From Streptomyces mirabilis (GTDB lineage Bacteria; Actinomycetota; Actinomycetes; Streptomycetales; Streptomycetaceae): a DNA stretch of 64,000 bases. The position numbers and the translations under genes were made by a program. This document shows positions 32,232 to 47,261 of the stretch, piece by piece (the stretch's first letter is position 1; each line of letters starts with the position of its first letter). The stretch lies in the NCBI RefSeq assembly GCF_039503195.1, contig NZ_JBCJKP010000001.1:3348001-3412000 (forward strand). The letters run 5' to 3'. The notes under the pieces were generated by a model that was given only the letters and a program-made list of their open reading frames with translations, was not told the origin of the DNA and made no database searches.

Positions 32232-32680
32232 CCCGATTCTCCTCATGCGACTCATGGACCCATACGGGACCGAAGGGAAGCGGGGGGTGGGCGCACGCTA
32301 CCCAGCAGGTATGGACCTGCGCCAGGCTCTGGCCAAACTGAACAGTTGGTATGCAGCAGATCGATGGCTGTATCAACTACTTCTGTTCGGCGCCGGGAAT
32401 CATGGGCCCGTCGTACCGCGAGTTCCACCGACGAGACGAGGGCGGATCCGCGATCAAGGACGCGCGGCCGAGGAGCTCATCGAGCAAACCGGGCTCGGTG
32501 CGGCTTGCGGGGGTCAAGTCCTCCGCCGGGCCGCGCAAACACTGGCCTGACACCGCGAAGCGCTCGCGTCGGCACCCACGCGTCCGCCGGGTCCTCGCGA
32601 CCGCACCGCCCCGGCCGCTCGGGGAGATCTTGGCGGAGGCGCGTGCGGACCCCGTTTCCCGAAATCGCCCGGCTCCGTGC
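32232..32680. other. 449-bp gap without a recognised gene
   Basis: Between the DUF485 gene and the mce locus promoter motif, open frames exist on the + strand (for example 32245-32550, with LIEQTGLGAACGGQVLRRAA). None has a ribosome site or a family I recognise, and GC skew between codon positions is weak. The region should contain the divergent promoter of the DUF485/symporter operon. Confidence 0.5.
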
Positions 32681-32708
32681 GACGGACCCGCCGCCCCGCC
32701 CCGTAGAG
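32681..32708 (+). promoter_or_regulatory. Candidate sigma-factor promoter, copy 1 (GACGGAC-N15-GTAGAG)
   Basis: GACGGAC at 32681-32687 and GTAGAG at 32703-32708, continuing as CAGA, recur with identical 15-bp spacing at 35027-35054. The GTAGAG is 41 bp before the transglycosylase GTG start, leaving room for a short leader with the GAGGGGAG ribosome site. Confidence 0.5.
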
Positions 32709-32743
32709 CAGACGACATCAGCTCACAGCGAGGGGAGCGCGAC

Positions 32744-33802
32744 GTGGCAGGGCACAGAGTCAGAGGCGCCAGGGGTACGGCGGTCGCGGCGGCGGCCATG
32801 GCGGCGCTGACCGCGTCACAGGCGCCGGGGGCGGTCCCGGCACGGGCTTCCGTACCCCCGCGGCAGGCGCCCGCCGAGCAGGGGCCGAGCGTGTCGGGCG
32901 ACACGCGGTACCGCACCGACCTTCCGCTGCTGCGGACCCGGGAACGCGAGGGCGAGGCGTCGGTGGCGGGCGCCGCGCTGCCGGCGAGCGTGTTCGCCGC
33001 CTACCGGCACGCCGAGGCGGAACTCGCACGCGCCGCGCCCGGCTGCCGGCTGCGGTGGCAGTTGCTGGCCGCGATCGGCCAGGTCGAGTCCGGGCAGGCG
33101 CGCGGCGGTCGGGTGACGGCGGACGGTACGACCGTGGCGCCCATCCTCGGGCCGCGGCTGGACGGCGGCGCCTTCGCCGTCGTGCGGGACACCGACGGCG
33201 GCGCGTACGACGGGGACGCGGCCTACGACCGGGCGGTCGGACCGATGCAGTTCATCCCGTCGACCTGGGCCCGCTGGGGCACGGACGGCAATGGCGACGG
33301 GCGGGCCGACCCGGACAACGTCTTCGACGCGGCGCTCGCCGCCGGGCGCTACCTGTGTGCGGGCGGACGAGACCTCTCCGACCCGGCCGAGCTGGACCGG
33401 GCGGTCCTCGGCTACAACCACGCGGAGGCGTATCTGCGCACGGTCAGGGCCTGGTACACGTACTTCCTGGAAGGCTACCGGGTGGTGCCGGACAGCTCCG
33501 CGGAGTCCTCGGCGCACCCGGAGCCGTCGCGGCCGCCGTCCACGCCGAAGCCCTCACCGACACCGTCCGCCCGTCCGGGCGCCGCCCCCTCCCCGAAACC
33601 GTCCGCACGTCCCTCGCCGACCCCCGGCCCGTCCCGTCCGGCGGGCGGGGCCACTCCGACGGAGAAGCCCCAACTCCCCTCGCCCGGCACGGACATCGAA
33701 CTGCCCGGCGACGACCTGCTGCCCAGCGGCGGTCCGCTGACCAGTAACAGCGGGGACTCGACGACCTCCGCCCCCTCCACAACCGCGACTACCGGGCGGT
33801 AA
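32744..33802 (+). CDS. Secreted lytic transglycosylase with Pro-rich tail, first gene of the mce locus
   Basis: About 352 residues: a signal-like N-terminus (GTAVAAAAMAALTASQAPGA), then an SLT_2/MltB-like domain (about 85-245) with the catalytic Glu in AAIGQVESGQ and the family segment VGPMQFIPSTWARWGTDGNG. A Pro/Ser/Thr-rich tail of about 100 residues follows. It cleaves peptidoglycan glycan strands, perhaps to let the Mce complex span the wall; that role is inferred. GTG 32744 has GAGGGGAG upstream. Confidence 0.88.
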   Translation: MAGHRVRGARGTAVAAAAMAALTASQAPGAVPARASVPPRQAPAEQGPSVSGDTRYRTDLPLLRTREREGEASVAGAALPASVFAAYRHAEAELARAAPGCRLRWQLLAAIGQVESGQARGGRVTADGTTVAPILGPRLDGGAFAVVRDTDGGAYDGDAAYDRAVGPMQFIPSTWARWGTDGNGDGRADPDNVFDAALAAGRYLCAGGRDLSDPAELDRAVLGYNHAEAYLRTVRAWYTYFLEGYRVVPDSSAESSAHPEPSRPPSTPKPSPTPSARPGAAPSPKPSARPSPTPGPSRPAGGATPTEKPQLPSPGTDIELPGDDLLPSGGPLTSNSGDSTTSAPSTTATTGR

Positions 33803-33808
33803 TGTCAC

Positions 33809-33856: not shown

Positions 33857-34900
33857 ATGGCGACGCACATGCCGGACATGCCTGCGGAGATACAGGCGGC
33901 CCACGACCGTTGGCAGCGCATGTGGAGCCACCGCGAGCAACTGCTCAAGGTGGCCCGGCGCAGGTCGATGAGCCCGGAGGACGCCGAGGACGCGGTGCAC
34001 GAGGCCATGCTGCGCGCCGCGGAGCGCCCCGACCTGGACGACGAGCGCCTCGGCGGCTGGCTGACGACCGTGACCATGCGGCTGTGCGTCGATCGGCATC
34101 GCCAGGTCAACCGTGAGGCCGAGGTACACCGCAGCCCGACGCTCGCCGCGCCGGGTCCGGTGCCCGTCGAGGAGGCGGTGTGCGACCGGGCCGAGGCCAA
34201 GTGGCTGGCCGTGCGGAGCGGGGAGCTGCCCGCGCGCCAGGCCGAGGCGCTCCGGCTGAAGTCCGACGGCCTCGACGTCGGACAGGTCGCCGTGCGCATG
34301 GGGCTGAGCTATCGCACCGTCGAGTCGCTGCTCGCCCGGGCCCGGCGCACGCTGCGCAACTCGCTGGCCGGAACGCTGGGCCTCGCCCTGTTCCTGTGGG
34401 GGCGCGGCAAGCTGCGCGCGGGCGGACACGCGCAGGCCGTGGCGGTGACCTCGACGGCCGCGACCCTGGTGGTGGCGGGGTTCGTGTTGCCGTACGTCCA
34501 CGGCGGGGACAGCCAGGGCACGGCTCCCCGCCCCTCCGTGTCCCGCATGGCCCAGGTGACCAAGCAGACCGTCCGGCCCGACGGCGTCGGCCGGGTGGCC
34601 GCCCCGAACGCCCGTGATCTGTCGGCCGTCTCGGCGTCCCACGCGGCGACGCCGACGGTGCCGCCCGGCGATGGCGACCGGTCGTTGCTGCCTCTGTCGG
34701 TGCCACCGCTGCCGGACGCCTCGCTGTCACCCGTGCCGTCCGTCCCCGACGTCCCCGGCGTGTCCGACCTGCCGAGCGTGCCCGGCCTCCCCGATCTGCC
34801 GGCCACGTCCACGGTCCCGACGACGCCTCCGGCCCTCCCGGAGGCCTCCGCCACGTCCTCCGCCCCGGTCGACGTACCGACCCCGACCGCGCTGCCGTAG
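33857..34900 (+). CDS. ECF-like sigma factor fused to membrane segments and a Pro-rich tail
   Basis: The first 170 residues are a sigma-70 region 2/4 protein: region 2 about 25-90 (MSPEDAEDAVHEAMLRAAER, VTMRLCVDRHRQVNRE), region 4 about 122-168 (ARQAEALRLKSDGLDVGQVA, SYRTVESLLARARRTL). Two hydrophobic stretches follow (about 168-181 and 194-215). A 130-residue Pro/Ser/Val-rich tail ends in VPTPTALP. The protein would be membrane-tethered with an external tail, so release or conformational signalling may be needed. ATG 33857 has AAAGGGG before it. It sits inside the mce locus with no anti-sigma gene visible. Confidence 0.82.
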   Translation: MATHMPDMPAEIQAAHDRWQRMWSHREQLLKVARRRSMSPEDAEDAVHEAMLRAAERPDLDDERLGGWLTTVTMRLCVDRHRQVNREAEVHRSPTLAAPGPVPVEEAVCDRAEAKWLAVRSGELPARQAEALRLKSDGLDVGQVAVRMGLSYRTVESLLARARRTLRNSLAGTLGLALFLWGRGKLRAGGHAQAVAVTSTAATLVVAGFVLPYVHGGDSQGTAPRPSVSRMAQVTKQTVRPDGVGRVAAPNARDLSAVSASHAATPTVPPGDGDRSLLPLSVPPLPDASLSPVPSVPDVPGVSDLPSVPGLPDLPATSTVPTTPPALPEASATSSAPVDVPTPTALP

Positions 34901-35026
34901 AACCGCCGGAAAGCTGCCGCAGAACCGCCGGGAAAAGGACTGCCGTAGAACCAGCGGAGAACGCGCGGCCGTCGAGCCGCCGGAAACCCGGCCGCAAGAC
35001 CCCCGAAAAAAAACCGCCCCCGTCGC

Positions 35027-35054
35027 GACGGACGCCCGGCCCCTCCCCGTAGAG
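35027..35054 (+). promoter_or_regulatory. Candidate sigma-factor promoter, copy 2 (GACGGAC-N15-GTAGAG)
   Basis: GACGGAC (35027-35033) and GTAGAG (35049-35054), same 15-bp spacing and same following CAGA as at 32681-32708. GTAGAG is 45 bp before the MlaF-like ATPase start. The preceding 34901-35026 contains imperfect GCCG(T/C)AGAACC repeats and no gene. Confidence 0.5.
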
Positions 35055-35093
35055 CAGATGTCGGAGCTGCTCCACGGCCGAAGGGTGGACCGG

Positions 35094-36038
35094 ATGGGTG
35101 TCGAGATCTGTGTGGAAGGGCTGACCAAGTCCTTCGGTCACCAGGTCGTCTGGCAGGACGTCTCGCTGACGCTGCCCGCCGGGGAGGTCTCGGTCATGCT
35201 CGGCCCCTCGGGCACGGGCAAGTCGGTGTTCCTCAAGACGCTCGTCGGACTGCTGAAGCCGGACCGGGGTTCCGTGAAGGTCGCGGGCCGGGACGTCACC
35301 AGGCTGCGCGAGCACGAGCTGTACGAGGTGCGGAAGCTGTTCGGGGTGTTGTTCCAGGACGGCGCGCTGTTCGGCTCGATGAGCCTGTACGACAACATCG
35401 CTTTCCCGCTGCGCGAGCACACCCGCAAGTCCGAGAGCCAGATCCGGCGCATCGTGCTGGAGAAGATGGACATGGTCGGGCTGATCGGTTCGGAGGGGAA
35501 GCTGCCCGGCGAGATCTCCGGTGGGATGCGCAAACGGGCCGGGCTGGCACGTGCGTTGGTCCTCGATCCGGAGATCATCCTGTTCGACGAACCGGACTCG
35601 GGCCTCGACCCGGTGCGCGTCGCGTACCTCAACCAACTCATCGTCGACCTCAACGCGCAGATCAACGCGACGTTCCTGATCGTCACGCACGACATCGCCT
35701 CGGCCCGCCAGGTGCCGGACAACATCGGGCTGTTGTTCCGCCGTGAGCTGGTCATGTTCGGGCCCCGCGAGGAGCTGCTGACCAGCGATGAGCCCGTCGT
35801 ACGGCAGTTTCTGAACGGCCGGATGCAGGGGCCGATCGGGATGGCGGAAGAGAAGGACGCCGCGCAGGTCGAGCAGGAGCTGGCGCGGCTCGGCGACGCG
35901 GACCGGAAACCCCGCCACGTCGGCAACGACATGACGCCGCGCCTGATGCCGGGCCCCGGCATCGCCCGTCCGCCCCGCTGGGAGGCGATCGCGAGACGCG
36001 AGGCCGAGCTGCACCGGAAGGCGGTGACCGGCGCATGA
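35094..36038 (+). CDS. MlaF/MkL-type ABC ATPase of the Mce importer
   Basis: A 314-residue ATPase with Walker A GPSGTGKSV, Q-loop LFQDGALFGSM (typical of MlaF), signature ISGGMRKRAGLARAL, Walker B IILFDEPDSGLDP and H-loop VTHDIA. A C-terminal extension of about 60 residues (AQVEQELARLGDADRKPR...) is also seen in actinobacterial MkL proteins. It energises lipid import with the YrbE permeases and Mce proteins. ATG 35094 with AAGGG is chosen; ATG 35058 in frame is too close to the candidate promoter. The stop overlaps the next start (ATGA). Confidence 0.93.
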   Translation: MGVEICVEGLTKSFGHQVVWQDVSLTLPAGEVSVMLGPSGTGKSVFLKTLVGLLKPDRGSVKVAGRDVTRLREHELYEVRKLFGVLFQDGALFGSMSLYDNIAFPLREHTRKSESQIRRIVLEKMDMVGLIGSEGKLPGEISGGMRKRAGLARALVLDPEIILFDEPDSGLDPVRVAYLNQLIVDLNAQINATFLIVTHDIASARQVPDNIGLLFRRELVMFGPREELLTSDEPVVRQFLNGRMQGPIGMAEEKDAAQVEQELARLGDADRKPRHVGNDMTPRLMPGPGIARPPRWEAIARREAELHRKAVTGA

Positions 36039-36805
36039 GACTGTCACCCACCGGGGCGCTGAGGCACTCGGGGAACCTCTTCGCGATGGCGCTGGACGTC
36101 GTCCGGACCATCCCCCGACGGCCGTTCCAGGCACGGGAGTTCATCCAGCAGGCCTGGTTCGTCGCGAGCGTCACCATCCTGCCGACGGCCCTGGTGTCCA
36201 TCCCCTTCGGCGCGGTCATCGCGCTGCAGATCGGCAGCCTGACCCGGCAGCTCGGCGCCCAGTCCTTCTCCGGGGCCGCCTCGGTCCTCGCGGTGCTGCG
36301 GGAGGCCTCGCCGATCGTCACCGCGCTGCTGATCGCGGGCGCCGGCGGCACGGCGATCTGCGCGGATCTCGGGGCGCGGAAGATCCGCGAGGAGATCGAC
36401 GCGATGCAGGTGCTGGGCATCGACCCCATCCACCGGCTGGTCGTCCCGCGGGTCCTGGCGTCGATGGTGGTGGCGGTGCTGCTCAACGGCCTGGTGTCGG
36501 TGGTGGGCGTCGCGGGCGGCTACTTCTTCAACGTCGTCCTGCAGAACGGCACGCCGGGCGCGTATCTCGCCTCCTTCACCACGCTCGCCCAGCTCTCCGA
36601 CCTGTGGGCGGCGGAGATCAAGGCGCTGGTGTTCGGCGCGATCGCCGCGATCGTCGCCTCGTACAAGGGACTCAACGCGAAGGGCGGCCCGAAGGGCGTG
36701 GGCGACGCGGTGAACCAGTCGGTGGTGATCACCTTCATGTTGCTGTTCGTGACGAACTTCGTGATGACCGCCGTGTACTTCCAAGTCGTTCCGCAGAGGG
36801 GCTGA
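36035..36805 (+). CDS. YrbE/MlaE-family permease, first of two
   Basis: The 256-residue membrane protein has five to six helices and the MlaE signatures TALLIAGAGGTAICADLGARKI and EEIDAMQVLGIDPIHRLVVP. Together with the second YrbE protein it forms the membrane channel of the Mce transporter. It overlaps the ATPase gene by 4 bp. Confidence 0.93.
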   Translation: MRLSPTGALRHSGNLFAMALDVVRTIPRRPFQAREFIQQAWFVASVTILPTALVSIPFGAVIALQIGSLTRQLGAQSFSGAASVLAVLREASPIVTALLIAGAGGTAICADLGARKIREEIDAMQVLGIDPIHRLVVPRVLASMVVAVLLNGLVSVVGVAGGYFFNVVLQNGTPGAYLASFTTLAQLSDLWAAEIKALVFGAIAAIVASYKGLNAKGGPKGVGDAVNQSVVITFMLLFVTNFVMTAVYFQVVPQRG

Positions 36806-36808
36806 GTC

Positions 36809-37612
36809 GTGGCGCTGCTGAATCGTCTGGAGGAACTGGGCAGCCAGCTGTCCTTCTACGGCCGCTCGTTGGCGTGGACGGGCCGCACCGTACGCCGCTA
36901 CAAGAAGGAGATCCTGCGGCTGCTCGCCGAGGTGAGCTTCGGACGCGGCGCCCTCGCCGTCGTCGGCGGCACGGTCGGCGTCATCGCCTTCCTGTCGTTC
37001 TTCACCGGCACGGAGGTGGGCCTCCAGGGCTACGCCGCGCTCAACCAGCTCGGCACCTCGAACTTCGTGGCGTTCCTCTCGGCGTACTTCAACACCCGGG
37101 AGATCGCGCCACTGGTGGCGGGGCTCGCGCTGTCCGCGACGGTGGGGGCCGGGTTCACGGCGCAGCTGGGCGCGATGCGGATCAGCGAGGAGACGGACGC
37201 CCTGGAAGTCATGGGCGTGCCCTCGCTGCCGTTCCTGGTGACCACCAGGATGATCGCCGGTTTCGTCGCGGTGATCCCGCTGTACGTGGTCGGCCTGCTG
37301 TCCTCGTACTTTGCCGCCCGCACCATCACCACGGGCTACTACGGGCAGTCGGCGGGCACCTACGACCACTACTTCCAGCAGTACCTGCCGCCGGTCGACG
37401 TGCTGTGGTCCTTCGGGAAGGTGCTCGTCTTCGCCGTCCTGATCATCCTGGTGCACTGCTTCTACGGCTACTACGCGAGCGGCGGCCCGGCGGGCGTCGG
37501 CGTCGCAGTGGGCCGCGCCGTGCGCACCTCGATCGTCGCGATCAACGTCCTGGACTTCTTCCTGTCGCTCGCGATCTGGGGCGCCAACACGACCGTACGG
37601 ATTGCGGGGTGA
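36809..37612 (+). CDS. YrbE/MlaE-family permease, second of two
   Basis: A 267-residue membrane protein with the same fold: SATVGAGFTAQLGAMRISEE and TDALEVMGVPSLPFLVTTRM are the characteristic cytoplasmic segment. GTG 36809 lies 3 bp after the first permease. The final helices end at NTTVRIAG. Pairs with the first permease as a heterodimer (family knowledge). Confidence 0.93.
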   Translation: MALLNRLEELGSQLSFYGRSLAWTGRTVRRYKKEILRLLAEVSFGRGALAVVGGTVGVIAFLSFFTGTEVGLQGYAALNQLGTSNFVAFLSAYFNTREIAPLVAGLALSATVGAGFTAQLGAMRISEETDALEVMGVPSLPFLVTTRMIAGFVAVIPLYVVGLLSSYFAARTITTGYYGQSAGTYDHYFQQYLPPVDVLWSFGKVLVFAVLIILVHCFYGYYASGGPAGVGVAVGRAVRTSIVAINVLDFFLSLAIWGANTTVRIAG

Positions 37613-37617
37613 GCCGG

Positions 37618-38853
37618 ATGAGAGTGCTGAGACTGCGGTTGTACGGCGTCGTGTTCCTCGCCGTGCTCGCGCTGCTGCTGTCCCTGTCCGTCGCCGTGTA
37701 CCAACAGGTGTTCACCCCGGCCGTACGGATCGAGCTGGAGGCCGACAGCATCGGCAACCAACTCGATCCCCGCGCCGACGTCAAGCTGCGCGGACTGCTG
37801 GTCGGCGAGGTGCGCGCGGTCCACGCCGACGGGACGAAGGCGACACTCGACATCGCGCTCAAGCCGGAGTACGTCGCGTCCATCCCGTCCGACGTACACG
37901 CACGCCTGTTGCCCAAGACCCTGTTCGGCGAGAAGTACGTCGACCTGGTCGCGCCCGCGCGCTCCTCGGCCAGGCCCATCCGCGCCGGGGATGTCATCAC
38001 CCAGGACCGCACCCGCGTCGGCATCGAGCTCCAGCAGCTGATGAACGACCTGCTGCCGCTGCTGCGGACCGTGCAGCCCGGCAAGCTCAACGCCACGCTC
38101 TCCGCGTTCGCCACCGCCCTCGAGGGGCGCGGCGACCGGATCGGCGACAACCTCACGCGTGTGGAGGACTATCTGCACCGGCTCGATCCGCACCTGCCGT
38201 CCCTCACCGAGGACTTCGCCCGCCTGGCCGACGTCGCCGAGGTGTACGGCGACGCGGCTCCCGACCTGATGGAGATCCTGCGCAACACCGTCACCACCAG
38301 CCGCACCCTGGTCGAGCAGCGGGACCGGCTCGCGTCCGCGCTCACCACGACGGCCACTGCCGCGGGCACCGCGGACGACTTCCTCGACGCGAACGGCGAC
38401 CGGCTGATCACCCTGGGCCGGGTCTCCCGCCCCACGCTCGACCTCTTCGCCCGCTACTCGCCCGAGTACCCCTGCCTCTTCGCCGGCCTGGTGCGCGAGG
38501 AGCAGGCATCCGAGCAGGCTTTCCGGGGCGGCAGGATGCACATCACGCTCGAAGTCGTCCGCCCGCAGGGGGCGTACGAACCCGGTGAGTATCCGCGCTA
38601 CGACGATCGGTCGGGGCCCAACTGCCGCGATCTGCCCCATCCGCCGGTGCCCGCGCCCGGCGTCCACCTCAACGACGGTTCGGCGAAGGGCGGTTCGTCC
38701 GGGCCGGGCGGCGTCTCCGCCACCCGGGCCGAGCAGCGCGCCGTCGGCTCGCTCGTCGCGCCCGTCATGGGCGTGCCCGCCGACGAGGTACCGCCGGTCG
38801 CGACGCTGCTGTTCGGGCCGATGGCGCGCGGGACGGCGGTGAGCGTCGCATGA
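37618..38853 (+). CDS. MCE-family protein, first of six (MceA position)
   Basis: The protein of 411 residues has an N-terminal membrane helix (LYGVVFLAVLALLLSLSVAV) and an MCE domain at about 35-115 (VKLRGLLVGEVRAVHADGTK, LFGEKYVDLVAP). A long alpha-helical region follows that should form part of the transport tunnel, then a Gly/Pro-rich C-terminus. ATG 37618 is used; GTG 37609 would overlap the preceding stop (GTGA) and is equally possible. Lipid substrate not known. Confidence 0.9.
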   Translation: MRVLRLRLYGVVFLAVLALLLSLSVAVYQQVFTPAVRIELEADSIGNQLDPRADVKLRGLLVGEVRAVHADGTKATLDIALKPEYVASIPSDVHARLLPKTLFGEKYVDLVAPARSSARPIRAGDVITQDRTRVGIELQQLMNDLLPLLRTVQPGKLNATLSAFATALEGRGDRIGDNLTRVEDYLHRLDPHLPSLTEDFARLADVAEVYGDAAPDLMEILRNTVTTSRTLVEQRDRLASALTTTATAAGTADDFLDANGDRLITLGRVSRPTLDLFARYSPEYPCLFAGLVREEQASEQAFRGGRMHITLEVVRPQGAYEPGEYPRYDDRSGPNCRDLPHPPVPAPGVHLNDGSAKGGSSGPGGVSATRAEQRAVGSLVAPVMGVPADEVPPVATLLFGPMARGTAVSVA

Positions 38854-39932
38854 GGATCACGAGGATCATGAAGACCGCGAAGACTACGAGGTCCACGAGG
38901 ACGTCAGGAGCCCGGCAGGCCGCCGCCCCGCTGATCAAGTTCAGCCTCTTCGCCCTGGTGACGATCCTGGCGACGGCCCTGCTCGCCGCCACCATCGTCA
39001 ACATCTCCCTCACCCCCGAGCACACCTATCGCGCGGTGTTCAGCGACGTGACGGGTCTGGAGAAGGGCGACGACATCCGGGTGGCCGGGGTGCGGGTCGG
39101 CGAGGTCGAGGGCATCCGGATCAAGGACCGGACGTGGGCGGAGGTCACCTTCACTGTCGGTGAGGACCGCCCGCTGCTGAACAGCACCGGCGCGGTCATC
39201 CGCTACCGGAACCTGGTCGGACAGCGTTACGTCGCCCTGACCGAGGGCGCGGGAGACGGCACCCGGCTGAAGCCCGGCGCCACGATCCCGCTGTCGCGCA
39301 CCCGGCCCGCGCTGGACCTCAACGCGCTGCTGAACGGCTTCAAGCCACTGTTCGCGGCGCTCAGCCCGCAGGACGTCAATCAGCTCGCCACCGAGATCAT
39401 CCGGACCCTCCAGGGCGAGGGCGGCACCGTCAACAGCCTGCTCGCGCACACGGCGTCGCTCACCACGACGCTGGCCGGCCGCGACCAGCTGATCGGCTCG
39501 GTGATCGACCACCTGAACACCGTGCTGGGGACGCTGGACAAGCGCGGCGCCCGTTTCTCCGGGCTGCTCAAGCAGCTGCGTCGGGTGATCTCGGGGCTGT
39601 CCGCCGACCGCAAGCCCATCGGGCAGTCCCTGGTGGGGATCGGCGATCTGACGGACGCCACCTCGGGGCTGCTCAAGGACGCGCGTCCGCCCCTGAAGGA
39701 CGACATCGCCGAGCTGACCGATCTCACCGGAACGCTGAACAAGAACGAGAACACCGTGGAGGGCGTGCTGAAGCGGCTGCCGAACAAGCTGGGCGAGCTG
39801 ACGGGGACGGCGTCCTACGGCTCGTGGTTCAACTTCTACCTCTGCGACTTCGACGGCCGGATCGTGCTGCCGAAGACGAAGCAGGTGCTCACTCCCGAAC
39901 TGCACGTGGCGAGGGCGAGGTGCGGCGCATGA
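38850..39932 (+). CDS. MCE-family protein, second of six (MceB position)
   Basis: The 360-residue protein has a basic N-terminus (MRITRIMKTAKTTRSTRTSG), one membrane helix (FSLFALVTILATALLAATIV) and an MCE domain (VTGLEKGDDIRVAGVRVGEV, VGQRYVALTEGAGD). A coiled-coil-like region follows and the C-terminus has YLCDFDGR. ATGA overlap with the previous gene. Confidence 0.92.
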   Translation: MRITRIMKTAKTTRSTRTSGARQAAAPLIKFSLFALVTILATALLAATIVNISLTPEHTYRAVFSDVTGLEKGDDIRVAGVRVGEVEGIRIKDRTWAEVTFTVGEDRPLLNSTGAVIRYRNLVGQRYVALTEGAGDGTRLKPGATIPLSRTRPALDLNALLNGFKPLFAALSPQDVNQLATEIIRTLQGEGGTVNSLLAHTASLTTTLAGRDQLIGSVIDHLNTVLGTLDKRGARFSGLLKQLRRVISGLSADRKPIGQSLVGIGDLTDATSGLLKDARPPLKDDIAELTDLTGTLNKNENTVEGVLKRLPNKLGELTGTASYGSWFNFYLCDFDGRIVLPKTKQVLTPELHVARARCGA

Positions 39933-41194
39933 CAAAGCACTTCCTTCCGCGCAGGACCCGTGAGCGCCGCCCGGAGCCGCTGGTCAAGGTCCGTATCGAC
40001 CCGCCGAAGCTGCCGAAAATACGGCTCCTGCCGCGCCGGGCACCCCGCCCCCGCCGCCCCGAACCCCTGGTGAAAGTCCGCATCGACCCACCGAAGCTGC
40101 CGAAAATACGGCTCCTGCCGCGCCGGGCACCCCGCCCCCGCCGCCCCGAACCCCTAGTGAAAGTCCGCATCGACCCGCCTCGGATACGGCTTCCACGGAT
40201 CCGCCGTCCGCGCCTCACCCCGTTCCGTGAGCGAAACCCCGTGGTGATCGGCGCCGTCGGCCTCACCCTTCTCGCGCTGCTGACCGTGGCCGCGTTCAAC
40301 GCCGACAGCCTGCCGCTGATCGGTGGCGGCGAGACGTATAGCGCGGCCTTCTCGGAGGCGGGCGGCCTCAAGCCCGGCGACGAGGTGCGGATCGCAGGCG
40401 TCAAGGTCGGCAAGGTCGAGGACGTCGATCTGGACGGCGACCACGTCAGGGTCACCTTCAAGATCAAGGGCGATCCGGGGTTCGGCACCGAGACCGGCGC
40501 CTCGATCCGGGTCAAGACGATCCTCGGCGCGAAGTACCTCGCGCTGCATCCCAAGGGACCGGGACAGCTGAAGCCCGGGAGCGAGATACCGCTGAAGAGG
40601 ACGGTTCCGGCGTACGACGTCGTGCAGGCGTTCAGCGATCTCACCACCACGACGGAGAAGGTCGACACCGACCAGTTGGCGAAGGCCCTGGACACCATCT
40701 CCACCACGTTCCAGGACTCGCCCGCCGAGGTACGGGCATCCATCAAGGGCCTGTCGAAGATCTCCCGTACGGTCGCCTCGCGCGACAAGGCGCTGGGCGA
40801 GCTCCTCGACCACGCGAACGGTGTCACGGGCGTACTGGCCGAGCACTCCGAGGACTTCACCGCGCTGGTCAAGGACGGCGACCAGCTGTTCAAGGAGATC
40901 AGCAAGCGCCGCGAGGCGATCCACAAGCTGCTGAAGACCTCCGCCGCGCTCGGCATCGAGCTCTCCGGCCTGGTCGAGGACAACGACAAGGAGATCGGGC
41001 CCGCCCTCAAGGGCCTGAACACCGTGGTGCGGATGCTCGAACGGAACCAATCCAGCCTCGACCGGAGCGTCAAGCTGCTCGCGCCCTACGTCCGGGTCTT
41101 CAGCAACGCCCTCGGCAACGGCCGCTGGTTCGACAGCTACGTCCAGAACCTGGTCGCCGCTCCAGTGGTGCCGCGCACGGGAGGCGCCCGGTGA
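39929..41194 (+). CDS. MCE-family protein, third of six (MceC position), with repeated basic N-terminus
   Basis: A 421-residue protein whose cytoplasmic N-terminus is unusually long (about 105 residues) and made of 2.4 copies of a 29-residue Arg/Pro-rich repeat (core RRPEPLVKVRIDPPKLPKIR). Then comes one membrane helix (VVIGAVGLTLLALLTVAAFN), an MCE domain (AGGLKPGDEVRIAGVKVGKV, LGAKYLALHPKGPG) and a helical region. ATGA overlap with the previous gene fixes the start, so the repeats are translated. Confidence 0.92.
   Translation: MTKHFLPRRTRERRPEPLVKVRIDPPKLPKIRLLPRRAPRPRRPEPLVKVRIDPPKLPKIRLLPRRAPRPRRPEPLVKVRIDPPRIRLPRIRRPRLTPFRERNPVVIGAVGLTLLALLTVAAFNADSLPLIGGGETYSAAFSEAGGLKPGDEVRIAGVKVGKVEDVDLDGDHVRVTFKIKGDPGFGTETGASIRVKTILGAKYLALHPKGPGQLKPGSEIPLKRTVPAYDVVQAFSDLTTTTEKVDTDQLAKALDTISTTFQDSPAEVRASIKGLSKISRTVASRDKALGELLDHANGVTGVLAEHSEDFTALVKDGDQLFKEISKRREAIHKLLKTSAALGIELSGLVEDNDKEIGPALKGLNTVVRMLERNQSSLDRSVKLLAPYVRVFSNALGNGRWFDSYVQNLVAAPVVPRTGGAR
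39965..40178 (+). repeat. 87-bp in-frame tandem repeat inside the MceC-position gene
   Basis: Copies begin at 39965, 40052 and 40139 (partial). Copies 1 and 2 are nearly identical, including CTGCCGAAAATACGGCTCCT. The unit is exactly 29 codons, so copy number can change without breaking the frame. Confidence 0.95.
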
Positions 41195-42315
41195 AGAACC
41201 TGAAGAGGCGCGTGGCCGTGGTCACCGCACTCGCCCTCGTCGCCGCGCTCACCTACGTGCTGTGGCCGCGCTCCGAGTCCGTGCACGTCACCGCGTACTT
41301 CCCACGCACCGTCGGCATCTACCCCGGCTCGGACGTCCGCGTCCTCGGCGTACGGATCGGCGAGGTCGAGAAGATCACGCCGGAGGGCGACCGGGTGCGG
41401 GTGGAACTGAAGTACGACGAAGGCCGCAAGGTGCCGGCGGACGCCAAGGCCGCCGTCATCAACTCCTCGGTGGTCAGCGACCGTTACGTACAACTGCTGC
41501 CGGTGTACCGAAGGGGACCGGTACTGCGGAACGGCGCCGTCATCCCCGAGACGCGGACGGCGGTACCGGTCGAGCTGGACCGCGTCTTCGACAGCCTGCA
41601 CACGACGGCCGACGCGCTCGGCCCCCAGGGCGCCAACAAGGACGGCTCGCTGTCGCGGCTGCTCGGGGTGAGCGCGGACAACCTCGACGGCCAGGGCGAG
41701 AACCTCAACCAGACGGTCGAAGACCTCTCGCAGGCCGTCACCACGCTGTCCGACGGCCGCACGGACCTGTTCGGCACGGTGCGGAACCTGCAGGTGTTCA
41801 CGGCCGCGCTGGCCGCCGACGACAAGAGCGTGCGGTCCTTCGACACCAGCCTCGCCGAGGTCGCCGGACAGCTCGCGGGCGAGCGCAAGGACCTCGCGGA
41901 CGCACTCAAGAACCTGGGGACGGCGCTCGGCGACGTGTCCGCCTTCGTGAGGAACAACAAGAAGTCGCTGACCTCGAACGTGCGGGGCCTCAGCAAGGTG
42001 ACCAAGGTGCTCGTCACCCAGCGAGCCGCGCTGGCCGAGCTGTTGGAGGTCGCTCCCACGGGTCTGTCGAACCTGAACAACGCCTACAACCCGTCCTCGG
42101 GCACCCTCGACACCCGCAACAACGCGCAGCAGGCACAGGATCCGGCCTCACTGCTGTGCTCCGTACTGAGGACGACCGGCGACGAAGGCGGCAAGAACCC
42201 CGACTGCAAGGAGCTCAAAGGCCTCTTCGACTCCCTGCCGAAGGTGCCTCAGGGCCCCGCGGTGACGGGCACGGTCGACCGGACGCTCGGCGGAATTCTG
42301 GGGGCGAGCGCATGA
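41191..42315 (+). CDS. MCE-family protein, fourth of six (MceD position)
   Basis: The 374-residue protein has a short cytoplasmic start, a membrane helix (VAVVTALALVAALTYVLW), an MCE domain (GIYPGSDVRVLGVRIGEVEK, VVSDRYVQLLPVYRRGP) and a helical region. A cysteine pair (LLCSVL...NPDCKEL) is near the C-terminus. GTG start overlaps the preceding TGA (GTGA). Confidence 0.92.
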   Translation: MKNLKRRVAVVTALALVAALTYVLWPRSESVHVTAYFPRTVGIYPGSDVRVLGVRIGEVEKITPEGDRVRVELKYDEGRKVPADAKAAVINSSVVSDRYVQLLPVYRRGPVLRNGAVIPETRTAVPVELDRVFDSLHTTADALGPQGANKDGSLSRLLGVSADNLDGQGENLNQTVEDLSQAVTTLSDGRTDLFGTVRNLQVFTAALAADDKSVRSFDTSLAEVAGQLAGERKDLADALKNLGTALGDVSAFVRNNKKSLTSNVRGLSKVTKVLVTQRAALAELLEVAPTGLSNLNNAYNPSSGTLDTRNNAQQAQDPASLLCSVLRTTGDEGGKNPDCKELKGLFDSLPKVPQGPAVTGTVDRTLGGILGASA

Positions 42316-43592
42316 GCGCACTGCGCAAGGTCGCGGCGGTCGCGTGGGCCGCGGTCGGCTCGCTGCTGCTGTCCGGCTGCGAGTTCAACGGCTGGTACGA
42401 CGTCCAGCTGCCCGGCGGAGCCGCCGCCGACGGCCACGCGTACCACGTCACCGTCGAGTTCCGCGACGTCCTCGACCTGGTGCCGCAGTCGGCCGTGAAG
42501 GTCAACGACGTCACCGTGGGCGCGGTCGAGAAGGTGGAACTGGACGGGTGGCACGCGCGCGTACGGCTGCGGGTCGCCGACTCGGTGAAGCTGCCCGCCA
42601 ACGCGGTCGCCGAGCTGCGGCAGACCAGCATGCTCGGCGAGAAGTACGTCGCGCTCTCCGCCCCGACCGGCACGGCCCCCATGGGCCGGCTCGGCGACGG
42701 CGACCGCGTCCCGCTGTCCCGCAGCGGCCGCGACCCGGAGATCGAGGAGGTGCTCTCCGCACTGTCCGCGCTGCTCAACGGCGGCGGGGTGGCCCAGCTC
42801 AAGACGATCACCGTGGAGCTGAACAAGGCCCTGGACGGCCGGGAGAACCGGGTCAGATCGCTGCTCAAGGAGCTGAACACCTTCATCGGCGGCCTGGACG
42901 ACCAGCGCAAGGACATCGTCCACGCCCTCGAGGCCGTCGACCGGCTCGCGGGGCGGCTCGGCAAGGAGAAGAAGACGATCGCCCAGGCCGTCGACACGAT
43001 GCCACCCGCGCTGAAGGTCCTGGCCGACCAGCGCCGCGATCTGACGAGGATGCTCACCGCCCTGTCGAAGCTGGGCAAGGCGGGCACCAAGGTGGTCAAC
43101 GCCTCGCACGACGACACGGTCGCGAACCTCGAACAGCTGCGGCCCATCCTGCAGCGGCTGAACAAGGCGGGCGACGATCTGCCCAACTCCCTTGAGTTGC
43201 TGACCACTTACCCGTTCCCGCGCAACGCGGTGGACGCCGTCAAGGGGGACTACGTCAACCTCGACATCACGGCCGACCTCGATCTGTCCGACCTCTACGG
43301 AAACCTGACGGACGGCGACTCCGGCCGTGGCAAGGGCGATTCCCACAAGCCCCGCACTCCCGACGTACCGGATCTCCCCGGTCTCCCCGATCTGCCGAGC
43401 GTGCCGACGCCCACGGCGCTGCCGAGCACACCGAGCCTGCCGTCGTCCCCCTCGGTGCCGTCGGCCCCCTCGGGCGGGGGCGGGCCGCTGTGCCCGCCGG
43501 TGTGCACCAGCGGCTACACCACCCAACGCGGGCTGCCCGAGGGGATCAACCTCGCGCTCGCGGAGCTGATGCTGAAGGGGGTTCAGCCGTGA
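42312..43592 (+). CDS. MCE-family lipoprotein, fifth of six (MceE/LprK position)
   Basis: The 426-residue protein carries a lipoprotein signal (AVAWAAVGSLLLSGC, Cys22 or so), an MCE domain (VDLVP-type segment VLDLVPQSAVKVNDVTVGAV, MLGEKYVALSAPTG) and a helical region. A Pro/Leu/Ser-rich tail (GLPDLPSVPTPTALP, positions about 355-370) is followed by CPPVCTSGYTTQRG. Lipoprotein at this place is usual for actinobacterial mce operons. ATGA overlap. Confidence 0.93.
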   Translation: MSALRKVAAVAWAAVGSLLLSGCEFNGWYDVQLPGGAAADGHAYHVTVEFRDVLDLVPQSAVKVNDVTVGAVEKVELDGWHARVRLRVADSVKLPANAVAELRQTSMLGEKYVALSAPTGTAPMGRLGDGDRVPLSRSGRDPEIEEVLSALSALLNGGGVAQLKTITVELNKALDGRENRVRSLLKELNTFIGGLDDQRKDIVHALEAVDRLAGRLGKEKKTIAQAVDTMPPALKVLADQRRDLTRMLTALSKLGKAGTKVVNASHDDTVANLEQLRPILQRLNKAGDDLPNSLELLTTYPFPRNAVDAVKGDYVNLDITADLDLSDLYGNLTDGDSGRGKGDSHKPRTPDVPDLPGLPDLPSVPTPTALPSTPSLPSSPSVPSAPSGGGGPLCPPVCTSGYTTQRGLPEGINLALAELMLKGVQP

Positions 43593-44878
43593 TCACCCGT
43601 ACGGTCAAGGCCCAGCTCCTGGCCTTCGCCACCGTCACCGCCGTCGGGGTGTCGTACGTCGGCGCCGAGTACACCGGTCTGGTGGACGACGTCCTGGGCC
43701 GCGGTTACACCGTGCGAGCGGACTTCGCCGACTCCGGGGGCATCTTCCCCGGTGCCGAGGTCACCTATCGCGGGGTGCCGGTGGGTCGCGTCGGCGCGCT
43801 GCGGCTGACCGGCTCCGACGGCGTCTCGGTCGCTCTCGACATCAAGGACGGCACGCCACGCATCCCGGCGGACACCCTCGCCGTGGTGGCGAACCGCTCG
43901 GCGGTGGGCGAGCAGTACGTCGACCTGCAGCCGCGGACATCGCACGGCCCGTACCTCCTCGACGGCAGCGCCATCCCGCGCGGCAGCACGCGCGTGCCAC
44001 TGCCCACGACGGACCTGGTCCTGAGCCTGGACCGGCTGGTGAACTCGGTCGGCAAGGACGATCTACGGGTCACCGTGGACGAGTTGGGCAAGGCCTTCTC
44101 GGGCACCGGCCCGAATCTGAGCCGACTGGTGGACTCGGGCAACGCGCTCGTGGAGTCGGCCTCCGAGTCGCTCCCCCAGACGATCTCGCTGATCGAGGAC
44201 TCGCGAAAGGTCCTCAAGACGCAGTCCGACCAGGGCTCGTCCATCACGTCGTTCGCGCACGACCTGGCGGCTCTCACCGCGCAGCTGAAGTCGAGCGACG
44301 GAGACCTGCGCAAGCTGATCGGCAACGCGACACCGGCCGCGCAGCAGGTGAACTCGCTGCTGAAGAACATCTCACCGCGCCTGTCGGTCCTGCTGGCCAA
44401 TCTGATCAGCGGCGGCCAGGTCACGCTGGCCAACCTGCCCGGCGTGGAGCAGTCCCTGGTCACCTTCCCGGCGCTGGTCGCGGGCAGCTACACGGTGGTC
44501 CCGGGCGACGGCACCACCCACTTCGGCCTGGTGGTGAACGCCGACGACCCGCCGCCGTGCACCCAGGGGTACGGCACGGCACGGCGCGACCCCTCGGACA
44601 CCAGCCCGCGCGAGGCGAACACCGACGCGCGCTGCACGGCCCCGCGCGGAAGCAAGACCTCGGTACGGGGCGCGCAGAACGCCCCCGGCGCGTCGGCCGC
44701 TTCCGGCGATGCGAACCAGGCGGCGTACGTGACGCCGTACGTCACGCCTTACGACCCGGAGACCGGCATCGCGACCGGCCCGGACGGCAGACCGGTCGAG
44801 ATCGGCTCGACGGGCGGCCAACAGGCGGTGTTCGGAAAGGAGTCGTGGCAATGGCTGCTGGTAGGGCCGATGGCATGA
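43589..44878 (+). CDS. MCE-family protein, sixth of six (MceF position)
   Basis: The 429-residue protein has an N-terminal helix (LLAFATVTAVGVSYVGAEYT), an MCE domain (GIFPGAEVTYRGVPVGRVGA, AVGEQYVDLQPRTS), helical region and a polar C-terminal tail with a short YVTPYVTPYDPETG repeat. GTG start overlaps the preceding stop. Confidence 0.92.
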   Translation: MITRTVKAQLLAFATVTAVGVSYVGAEYTGLVDDVLGRGYTVRADFADSGGIFPGAEVTYRGVPVGRVGALRLTGSDGVSVALDIKDGTPRIPADTLAVVANRSAVGEQYVDLQPRTSHGPYLLDGSAIPRGSTRVPLPTTDLVLSLDRLVNSVGKDDLRVTVDELGKAFSGTGPNLSRLVDSGNALVESASESLPQTISLIEDSRKVLKTQSDQGSSITSFAHDLAALTAQLKSSDGDLRKLIGNATPAAQQVNSLLKNISPRLSVLLANLISGGQVTLANLPGVEQSLVTFPALVAGSYTVVPGDGTTHFGLVVNADDPPPCTQGYGTARRDPSDTSPREANTDARCTAPRGSKTSVRGAQNAPGASAASGDANQAAYVTPYVTPYDPETGIATGPDGRPVEIGSTGGQQAVFGKESWQWLLVGPMA

Positions 44879-45450
44879 GCGAGACCATGAACAGGACCTT
44901 GAGCGTGACCGTGTCGGGCAAGATCCTGTCGAGCAGGGCGTGGTCGGGCAGGGCCTGGTCGGGCAGGGCCTGGTCGGGCAGGGCGTCGTCGGTGGCGCTC
45001 GCCGTGGCGACCGTCCTCACGACGGCGCTGACGATCTGGCTGGTCCTTGGGCTCTACGGCCAGCACGACAGGGCGCAGCGGCGCCAGGACATCCTGGCCG
45101 CGGCCCGCCAGTCGGCGCTGAACTTCACCTCGCTCGACTACCGGCACTACGACCGGGACAGCGCGAACGTCCTCCAGGGCGCCACCGGTGACTTCAAGAA
45201 ACAGTTCGCCGCGCAGACCGAGCAGCTGACCAAGCTCGTCGCCGCGAACGAGTCCGTGTCCGAGGGCCAGATCCTCGACGCGGGCATCGTCCGCTCCGAC
45301 GAGCATTCGGCCCGCGTCCTGGTGGTCGCCGACAGCACGGTGACCAACACGGCCGCCCCCAAGGGCGAGGCGCGCACCTACCGCCTCCAGCTCGACCTGG
45401 TGCACCGAAACGGCCGCTGGCTGACCTCCGACGTCGAGTTCGTCGGCTGA
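44875..45450 (+). CDS. Mce-associated membrane protein 1
   Basis: The protein of 191 residues has a cytoplasmic N-terminus with three RAWSG repeats (15-bp DNA units, about 44936-44985), one membrane helix (VALAVATVLTTALTIWLVLG) and an extracytoplasmic NTF2-like domain (LDYRHYDRDSANVLQGATGD). This is the Mas pattern found downstream of actinobacterial mce genes, where such proteins stabilise the complex. ATG 44875 (ATGA overlap) is chosen; ATG 44851 would add eight residues. Confidence 0.85.
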   Translation: MSETMNRTLSVTVSGKILSSRAWSGRAWSGRAWSGRASSVALAVATVLTTALTIWLVLGLYGQHDRAQRRQDILAAARQSALNFTSLDYRHYDRDSANVLQGATGDFKKQFAAQTEQLTKLVAANESVSEGQILDAGIVRSDEHSARVLVVADSTVTNTAAPKGEARTYRLQLDLVHRNGRWLTSDVEFVG

Positions 45451-45499
45451 CCGCGCCCCTCCCCGCCATACGACCCATGAGGACATGAGGAGTAAGACC

Positions 45500-46303
45500 G
45501 TGGCGAAGACGACCACCCGAAGCCGCGGCTCCGGTTCCGGATCCGGCACCCGGCACACCATGACCGCGGCCGCCCGCGCGGCGGCCAAGCGCGCGGAGCG
45601 CGGCCACCTCGAACCGGAGCCGGCGTCCATCGACGAGGTGGCCCCGGGACGGCCCGGGGCACCGACCGCCGGCCGCACCGTGCTCATCGAGGCCCCCGAT
45701 GAGGACGGCTGGGACGACCCGCCCGAGCCCTCGCCGGAGGGCTTCGAGGAGGACGCACCGCAGGAGGAGGGCGAGCCCGGCCCCGGTACGGCTACGCGGC
45801 GCGGTCGGCGGCGGCTGCTCATCGCCGCCCTGTGTGTCCTGCTCCTGGCGGGCCTGGTCGCGGCCACCTTGCTCGGGTGGCGCTACCGGGCGGGCGTGCG
45901 GGCCGAACAGGCACGCGGTCAGGCACTCGCGGCCGCACGCCAGGCGGCGCCGGTCGTGCTGTCGTACGACTACAGGCACCTGGACCGCGACTTCGCCGCG
46001 GCCCGCGCCCGGCTCACCGGGCACTTCCGCGACGAGTACCGGAAGACCACCACGACGGTGGTCGGGCCGACGGCCAGGAAGTACCACGGGGTGGTGAAGG
46101 CCACGGTGGCGCAGCCCACCGGCGGCTCCCCGGCGGCCTCCGTGATCTCGGCCTCGGCCGACCGGGCCGTGGTCCTCCTCTTCGTCAACCAGGTGACCAC
46201 GAGCACCCAGGTCTCGGGCTCCCGCGTGGACCTGAACCGGGTGCGGATGACGGTGGCCCTGACGTCCGACGGCTGGAGGGTGAGCGGGGTCGACGCGCTC
46301 TGA
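45500..46303 (+). CDS. Mce-associated membrane protein 2
   Basis: A 267-residue protein with a long acidic cytoplasmic N-terminus (about 105 residues, rich in Glu/Pro), a membrane helix (LLIAALCVLLLAGLVAATLL) and an extracytoplasmic Mas domain (LSYDYRHLDRDFAAARARLT) like that of the preceding protein. GTG 45500 with GAGGAG fits better than ATG 45485. Last gene of the mce operon; a weak hairpin GGGGC/GCCCC lies at 46319-46334. Confidence 0.87.
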   Translation: MAKTTTRSRGSGSGSGTRHTMTAAARAAAKRAERGHLEPEPASIDEVAPGRPGAPTAGRTVLIEAPDEDGWDDPPEPSPEGFEEDAPQEEGEPGPGTATRRGRRRLLIAALCVLLLAGLVAATLLGWRYRAGVRAEQARGQALAAARQAAPVVLSYDYRHLDRDFAAARARLTGHFRDEYRKTTTTVVGPTARKYHGVVKATVAQPTGGSPAASVISASADRAVVLLFVNQVTTSTQVSGSRVDLNRVRMTVALTSDGWRVSGVDAL

Positions 46304-46437: not shown

Positions 46438-46977
46438 TCACCAGGTGTGCGCCACGTCCACCACGAGATGGTTGGCCGTCTGGAAGACCCGGAACGGCAG
46501 CCTCGCGCGGACGCCCAGTCCGGCCTGGGTGTAGCCCTCGGAGCCACCTGTGAACTTGAACTCCCGGAAGGTCCGGTACCCGGTGACGTCGACGGAGGGA
46601 AGCGGCGGGTAGGGCTGTCCGGTCGCCGGGTCGTAGCGCGAGGAGAACAGCGAGATCTCCAGAATGGCTCCGCCCTTGATCGGAACCACGACGTCGCTCG
46701 GGTCCTGGTGCAGTACGTCGACGTAGCGGACCGTGTAGCCGATGGGGTCGGCCGCCGTGCCCTGGGCGTCGAAGACCAGACGGTCGAAGCAGTCGTGCTG
46801 TCCGGCCCTCACGTCGACCAGTCGCCTGGAGGCAGTGGAGTCACCGGTCTTGTCCAGGCTCCCCCACGTCACGGCGCAGTCCACGGCCGTCGGCGCGGCC
46901 ACCGCCGGAACCGTGCCGGCCAACAGACCGCCGCCCGCCAGCATCATCGCGGCCAGTGCAGTACCTATCCGTCGCAT
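46438..46977 (-). CDS. Secreted AMIN-like domain protein
   Basis: The 179-residue precursor has a signal peptide (MRRIGTALAAMMLAGGGLLA, cleavage near AVAAPT). Its beta-rich domain carries FDRLVFDAQG and YRTFREFKFTGGSEG, as in small streptomycete AMIN-like proteins; the AMIN domain of cell-wall amidases binds the envelope. There is no catalytic domain. ATG 46977 is preceded by GGGGGG; the in-frame extension to 47208 would bury the signal peptide. The 284-bp region to 47261 holds no recognised gene. Confidence 0.78.
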   Translation of the reverse strand: MRRIGTALAAMMLAGGGLLAGTVPAVAAPTAVDCAVTWGSLDKTGDSTASRRLVDVRAGQHDCFDRLVFDAQGTAADPIGYTVRYVDVLHQDPSDVVVPIKGGAILEISLFSSRYDPATGQPYPPLPSVDVTGYRTFREFKFTGGSEGYTQAGLGVRARLPFRVFQTANHLVVDVAHTW

Positions 46978-47261
46978 GACTACCCCCCGGTAGCTCGCGT
47001 AGGTGTGTGTCTGTTCAGACCGGCGGCCTTCCGGAAGGTTGTGCGTAGTGGAGCAGCCCATTGCGGCGCAGGGGCCCTTCCAGCACCAGGTGCCCCGTGA
47101 GACCTCAGCGTTCTCCGCGGGCACCGCCGCCTGGTGCTGTTCTTCCTGCCGTTCTATCTCGGCGTGGGCATCGCGTGAGGTGCGCTCGACATCGACCGCA
47201 TCGGCCACCGCCTTCGGCAGGCCGACCCGGTACCGTCGGCCTGACCGCGCCCCTCCTGTCG

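Follow-up and report, generated by a model that had tools for sequence, protein, structure and literature searches.

Sigma factors of the ECF type that are fused to a membrane segment are already known. In the sections of PMC8999054 that were available, ECF48, ECF52, ECF53 and IutY are described as membrane-fused sigma factors, the first three with a zinc-finger domain, and ECF123 is named in a table together with its model protein. ECF48 and ECF53 are actinobacterial groups with membrane-fused C-terminal extensions. ECF52, also from Actinobacteria, is represented by SCO4117 of Streptomyces coelicolor, which according to the available part of PMC5826349 joins an ECF sigma factor to a membrane helix and a Pro-rich stretch outside the cell and carries zinc-finger and carbohydrate-binding domains; truncation and proteolysis of SCO4117 are discussed there. 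IutY of Pseudomonas putida (ECF243; PMC8999054, same sections) is a sigma factor fused to a membrane-anchored C-terminal part. It carries a fused anti-sigma domain, Prc and RseP release it during iron signalling, and truncated IutY is active.

The closest description of the neighbouring operon is that of the mce6 operons of Streptomyces and Nocardia (PMC1810536), in which a Mkl ATPase (SAV5902 in S. avermitilis) is encoded directly upstream of yrbEA and mceA-F. The portion of that paper at hand mentions no upstream sigma factor, whereas the operon described here is preceded by one, the product of a gene referred to below as sig. The window, by which is meant the whole 64,000-nucleotide stretch of Streptomyces mirabilis DNA that was analysed, contains slt, then sig, and directly downstream of sig the mkl-yrbEAB-mceA-F operon:

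32744..33802 (+), slt, lytic transglycosylase-like protein of 352 aa with a Pro-rich tail (SLT_2, E 8e-7, above cut-off)
33857..34900 (+), sig, ECF-type sigma factor with a predicted membrane anchor, 347 aa (Pfam, TIGR02937)
35094..36038 (+), mkl, ABC ATPase (MlaF-like) of the Mce importer (ABC_tran, E 2.5e-29; start corrected to 35094)
36035..37612 (+), yrbEA and yrbEB, permeases (yrbEA by MlaE, E 4e-70; yrbEB named by order)
37618..44878 (+), mceA-mceF, open reading frames in conserved order, named by order
44878..46303 (+), mas-like genes at the operon end, assigned by order and named after PMC1810536 by position only

The window thus has the mce6-type arrangement of Mkl upstream of yrbEA-yrbEB-mceA-F, with mkl and yrbEA identified by family scan and the rest by order and homology. 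In tblastn the yrbEB product is 28% similar to the reading frame of yrbEA at another locus (L156), and no Pfam match was obtained for mas2. The GTG start of slt at 32744 was chosen by us from a purine-rich site upstream of it, the mechanical open reading frame beginning at 32351, and the export signal of slt was judged by eye. Three further features of the region may be recorded. The N-terminal part of MceC (about 39950-40150) contains a repeat of roughly 28 residues in about three copies (RRPEPLVKVRIDPPKLPKIRLLPRRAP), the mkl leader (35050-35080) has apparent hairpin potential (GAGCAG...CTGCTC, judged by eye), and a gene for an AMIN-like domain protein (46438-47208, minus strand) converges on the mce operon at its end.

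The first-pass annotation of the window had described sigma regions 2 and 4 followed by two hydrophobic segments and a Pro/Ser-rich tail, and each of these parts is present, the domains by Pfam and the segments by KD hydropathy, with a tail of 135 residues:

33926..34114 (+), sigma region 2, aa 24-86 (PF04542 Sigma70_r2, E 3e-11; AlphaFold2 pLDDT about 90)
34223..34354 (+), sigma region 4, aa 123-166 (PF08281 Sigma70_r4_2, E 2e-9)
34364..34402 (+), hydrophobic segment 1, about aa 170-182 (KD 1.74 over 13 residues; AlphaFold2 helix 152-182)
34436..34492 (+), hydrophobic segment 2, predicted single transmembrane helix, N-in/C-out, aa 194-212 (KD 1.87 over 19 residues)
34493..34897 (+), Pro/Ser-rich tail, predicted disordered and outside, aa 213-347, 135 residues

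The product of sig is a genuine sigma factor. Both of its domain matches lie above the Pfam cut-off and, as the sole Pfam matches, they present regions 2 and 4 in the absence of region 3, which is the ECF arrangement. NCBIfam returned TIGR02937 (sigma70-ECF; 60.5 bits against a cut-off of 42.9), which is a broad superfamily model, and no narrower family reached its own cut-off among the 25 of 37 families listed. The AlphaFold2 model, good over sigma-2 and fair over sigma-4, becomes poor past residue 185; a Foldseek search with this model placed SigL of M. tuberculosis at the top.

When sig is set beside the fused sigma factors introduced above, it shares with ECF52 a membrane helix followed by a Pro-rich stretch, as judged from its sequence. 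Zinc-finger and carbohydrate-binding domains, as described for ECF52 in the text available, are both absent. The zinc-finger signature HxxxCxxC was found in 0 of 37 family members from whole genomes and in 0 of 120 listed homologues (of 764), and Pfam matched no carbohydrate-binding domain at the C-terminus in the 347 residues of sig. The genome of the window also encodes an ECF52-like protein of its own (L199) with zf-HC2 and NPCBM domains; this was the one ECF52-like member compared, and its similarity to the sigma domain of sig is not significant (BLASTP E 6.5). Membership of ECF52 was rejected on all three counts. ECF48 and ECF53 resemble sig in their membrane-fused extensions and are set apart, as they are described in the accessible sections, by the same zinc finger. 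The fused anti-sigma domain of IutY likewise has no counterpart in sig, where Pfam identified no anti-sigma domain within the 347 residues, no domain of any kind C-terminal to region 4, and a gap of 27 residues between the region-4 match and segment 2 of the window protein. The earlier remark that such a regulatory design is seldom described is a fair one, but in principle the design is not new, given what the available part of PMC8999054 reports for ECF48, ECF52, ECF53 and IutY.

With respect to topology, the first-pass annotation had combined two membrane segments with an external tail. These are incompatible, since two spans would return the tail to the cell interior; the anchor and the external tail are better accommodated by one likely span. 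In the AlphaFold2 model, segment 1 continues the last helix of sigma-4, with confidence dropping at that point, and it is probably a cytoplasmic or membrane-surface helix that extends this domain. Segment 2 is the sole stretch long enough to span the membrane. The loop joining the two segments has a net charge of +1 to +4 in 37/37 family members from whole genomes, and the 15 residues past segment 2 have a net charge of -2 to +1 in the same 37. A second set, the best 80 of 165 named loci, of which nine are also among the 28 sigma-linked loci discussed below, gave +3 to +5 and -3 to +2, respectively, with the same asymmetry in every locus. By the positive-inside rule, a positive loop followed by a neutral or negative stretch predicts that the sigma domains are inside, that there is one span and that the tail is outside. 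A two-span topology was rejected on this charge pattern in both sets.

Since the anchor is moderately hydrophobic, its insertion into the membrane is put no higher than likely. The KD value falls below 1.6 in four of the 37 members, all of them paralogues, and in two of the 80 named loci. This moderate hydrophobicity, together with an AlphaFold2 pLDDT below 50 for the helix and most of the tail, would also suit a soluble protein in which the helix is not a span and the C-terminal extension folds onto the sigma domains, as has been proposed for ECF41. We consider such a protein quite unlikely, given that the charge asymmetry is present without exception in both sets and that the Pro-rich tail is disordered with no folded domain predicted, neither SnoaL nor any other Pfam domain being found in sig.

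The tail is, from the pattern of substitution, a genuine part of the protein. It consists of 20% Pro and 21% Ser/Thr, and its length ranges from 121 to 189 residues in the 37 whole-genome members, from 121 to 169 in the 120 listed homologues (of 764) and from 117 to 162 in the 80 named loci; the longest, 189 residues in L066, belongs to a reading frame that extends beyond the stop points of L067 and L068. In nine of nine pairs the tail has a dN/dS below 1 (0.33-0.83), compared with 0.06-0.30 for the sigma domain and 0.14-0.42 for the helix and linker. A ratio that is below 1 yet above that of the sigma domain fits a stalk that is disordered and under weak constraint, apart from a few positions that are fixed. 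Among the 120 listed homologues (of 764), 94 have a short block near LPLSVP and 113 end with Leu-Pro as the final two residues. As a separate observation, MceE (42312-43592) of the sigma-linked loci has a Pro-rich end, for example PDLPSVPTPTALP, that resembles the sigma tail (34493-34897), and the tail of slt is Pro-rich as well. The similarity between MceE and sigma tails is greater within loci than between them (28 loci, permutation p 0.0004, relatedness uncorrected), but little weight is given to it because relatedness was left uncorrected and several MceE ends are badly cut.

Anchor and tail occur together in 37/37 whole-genome members, in all 120 listed homologues (of 764) and in 80/80 named loci. 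A sigma orthologue was found in 28 of 150 Streptomyces genomes (E below 1e-89). Among named species, S. avermitilis carries an orthologue (P0017). At E 1e-15, no relatives outside Streptomyces were detected among 396 genomes of the phylum representing 236 genera, and the organisms named among the matches listed (120 of 764, 120 of 748 and 80 of 165) are Streptomyces or [Kitasatospora] papulosa. A search of the open-licence literature found no published work on this sigma factor. Orthologues lacking the tail, which the first-pass annotation had named as evidence against its proposal, were sought and none was present in these three sets. Only the nearest relatives beyond the family (34-38% identity) are tail-less: 14 of the 14 checked end 8-44 residues past the region-4 match with neither anchor nor tail. 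Since these relatives stop after region 4, the anchor and tail mark the sig family. An origin of the tail by fusion of an anti-sigma factor neighbouring the tail-less relatives was considered and rejected, as all 14 end soon after region 4; no anti-sigma candidate was seen near L075-L087, whose neighbours were inspected by eye. Within the window's own genome there are at least 142 region-4 matches (150 of 456 candidates scored). Of the 61 proteins inspected, mostly long reading frames, only the ECF52-like L199 also passed the anchor test, which additionally demands a helix free of charged residues.

The position of sig beside mce genes is just as regular. All 28 sigma copies lie directly upstream of a yrbEA of high identity (89-100%), a type that is present in 29 of the 150 genomes. 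The one remaining genome (G099) has just 1.6 kb of contig ahead of yrbEA, and no sigma orthologue was found elsewhere in it. In 28/28 loci (27 and the window) the genes run sig-mkl-yrbEA-yrbEB-mceA-mceB, with more mce genes following where the contig permits, and the fusion likewise stands beside mkl and yrbEA in 80/80 named loci. The slt gene is missing or fragmentary in 6 of the 28 and was not found in 20 of the 80. A second Streptomyces mce lineage (65-75% identity, 47 loci) has none of the 28 sigma factors. Eight of its loci with listed neighbours (among L100-L119, which have no sigma gene) have similar long exported-looking genes upstream.

The expectation that this fusion would be conserved beside mce genes is thereby borne out, but the architecture is not specific to mce, since paralogue clades 2 and 3 keep the anchor and tail at other locations. 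The paralogous anchored sigma factors L066-L069 are remote from mce genes, and the recognition helix of the clade-2 proteins, as read by eye, differs too. In three of these loci (L066-L068) the sigma gene is followed by genes for exported-looking proteins, one with a PepSY domain, and an element variant lies near the junction.

The absence of an adjacent anti-sigma gene, as claimed in the first-pass annotation, was substantiated: the adjoining slt (SLT_2) and mkl (ABC_tran) matched no anti-sigma family in the family scan. It would still be conceivable that sig is a conventional sigma factor, held by an anti-sigma factor encoded elsewhere in the genome and merely modulated by its anchor and tail. 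The check covered the neighbourhood, and the genome has 12 zf-HC2 matches from which such a partner might come. As sig is flanked by slt and mkl in the window, mkl being its downstream neighbour in 28/28 loci, we regard a distant partner as very unlikely.

A comparison of upstream regions yielded a conserved block before mkl, and a search of the genome with it gave a copy before slt as the sole second site at up to 3 mismatches. The element common to both regions is GCGACGGAC-N13-CCGTAGAGCAG, and GCGACGGAC and CCGTAGAG are its putative promoter boxes:

32679..32711 (+), shared element of slt, an exact match 32 bp upstream of the GTG start
35025..35057 (+), shared element of the mce operon, an exact match 36 bp upstream of the ATG of mkl and immediately preceded by an A-tract

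The flanks and spacers of the two regions differ, so that the boxes alone are in common, and the whole genome has two element sites in all at up to 2 mismatches, the slt site among them. Across the 28 sigma-linked loci, the element before mkl has 0-1 mismatches of 20 in 28/28. Before slt it has no more than 1 in 20 of the 21 loci that could be tested, and the exception (L064) shows 3 mismatches together with a spacer lengthened by one base. The distance to the gene is 34-46 bp for mkl and, where the element is matched, 29-63 bp for slt (some slt starts being extrapolated), which are distances that a promoter should have. In the named loci, 0-2 mismatches were counted before mkl in 80/80, compared with 6-10 for shuffles, and at most 2 before slt in 55 of 58 tested; two of the remaining copies have 3 mismatches and L277, with a spacer visibly one base longer, has 7.

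The mce loci that have no sigma gene are different. In 20/20 of those fetched (of 47 found) the best match has 6-8 mismatches, which is the level of shuffled sequence; the mkl start of one (L107) was roughly placed, and two of the 20 sit in genomes that also have a sigma-linked locus. A scan of 26 whole genomes at up to 1 mismatch, a threshold set after the list was seen, gave 33 sites in 14 genomes with a clade-1 sigma factor: 26 at mce loci, 4 at clade-2 sigma genes and 3 elsewhere. No site at this threshold occurred in the 12 genomes that lack both clade 1 and clade 2, a group that includes two with clade 3. Sites with 2 mismatches were left uncounted; both groups of genomes have them, and a reversed control pattern also matches in both. 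The clade-2 genes, remote from mce, carry the variant GCGACGCA or GCGACACA; three of the four sites are downstream of the gene and the fourth falls within the 3' run-on of the L066 frame, and three of these sigma genes adjoin genes for exported proteins. Clade-3 paralogues gave no close element match and no clear element in their upstream regions. Since the element is missing at sigma-less mce loci and reappears as a variant at clade-2 sigma genes away from mce, it tracks the sigma factor and not mce, a strong linkage.

This linkage makes the element a candidate target that the sig protein may recognise, and with the shared element before both slt and the mce operon, both are plausible direct targets. 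Another factor might read the element instead, the regulon of sig lying elsewhere; recognition by sig is deduced from linkage, and the three sites away from the locus were inspected with no convincing target. A second factor of this kind seems improbable to us, at about the level of the soluble protein, given that the element accompanies the sigma factor at two unrelated kinds of locus and is absent from the 20 fetched sigma-less mce loci and, at up to 1 mismatch, from the 12 genomes without clade 1 or 2.

The region upstream of sig itself has a different conserved block that is unlike the shared element:

33772..33806 (+), conserved block before sig, CCCCTCCACAAC...TACYSGRCGGTAATGTC

It contains an imperfect palindrome, TACYSGRCGGTA, that overlaps a possible -10 box, and is probably the promoter or operator of sig. 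The palindrome part is kept in 28/28 loci, including L065, which is otherwise divergent, and, when as many as 3 substitutions are tolerated, in 79 of the 80 named loci; in genome G000 it is the sole site within 2 mismatches. Loci with an earlier end of the slt reading frame, L043 among them, keep the block too. Because the upstream block of sig does not contain the shared element, simple autoregulation is not seen, and because the block is a different one, another regulator probably sets the amount of the sigma factor while the tether sets its activity.

Since sig is placed between slt and an mce operon that share a promoter-like signature, it probably controls both. The explanation that we favor, and to which we would give an even chance, is that sig encodes a one-protein membrane-anchored ECF sigma factor with an outside tail, which targets slt and the mce genes and may be latent until freed. 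The sigma domains would be tethered by the protein's own single transmembrane helix with the long disordered Pro-rich tail outside, so that a single protein would stand in for the usual pair of sigma and anti-sigma factor. Transcribed from its own conserved promoter, it would most likely act on the two adjoining promoters before slt and mkl-yrbE-mce. Production of the wall-cutting enzyme would thereby be coupled to that of the Mce lipid importer, and the slt enzyme may open the wall for the Mce machine. More tentatively, the tethered protein may be latent, and sensing of the wall or the Mce complex by the tail may lead to cleavage in the tail, then in the membrane helix, and so to release. Activation by cleavage is suggested by analogy with the fused sigma factors in the available sections of PMC8999054 and with SCO4117 in those of PMC5826349.

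The main rival is that the sigma factor acts while anchored. It would then recruit RNA polymerase, at the membrane, to the promoters of mce and slt, which would aid insertion of membrane and exported products during transcription; the tail would be a wall anchor or spacer, and cleavage would be needless. With no anti-sigma domain in the 27 residues between region 4 and the helix, inhibition is not built into the protein, and most predicted targets, the ATPase Mkl excepted, encode membrane or exported proteins. Conversely, A201, T203, G208 and P212 of the helix are invariant in 43 sequences, which is beyond the need of a plain anchor, and the known fused sigma factors are thought to be held inactive in the available text of PMC8999054. 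On this evidence, action while tethered is unlikely. A bolder proposal, slightly less doubtful in our estimation, is that of a one-component transmembrane sigma factor devoid of any anti-sigma function, whose outside tail would read the wall or the Mce complex (the MceE tail being similar) and which would serve just the slt and mce promoters in the genome, perhaps at the membrane.

To our knowledge, there is little understanding of what turns Mce importers on outside mycobacteria or of the way in which they span a thick wall. While membrane-fused ECF sigma factors as such are already known, sig appears from its sequence to be new in having none of their zinc-finger or anti-sigma domains. If the explanation favored here is true, transmembrane signalling by a sigma factor would be simpler than described so far, with no need for either domain. 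A predicted membrane sigma factor, two likely promoters, a wall-cutting enzyme and an importer would then form one compact, testable unit.
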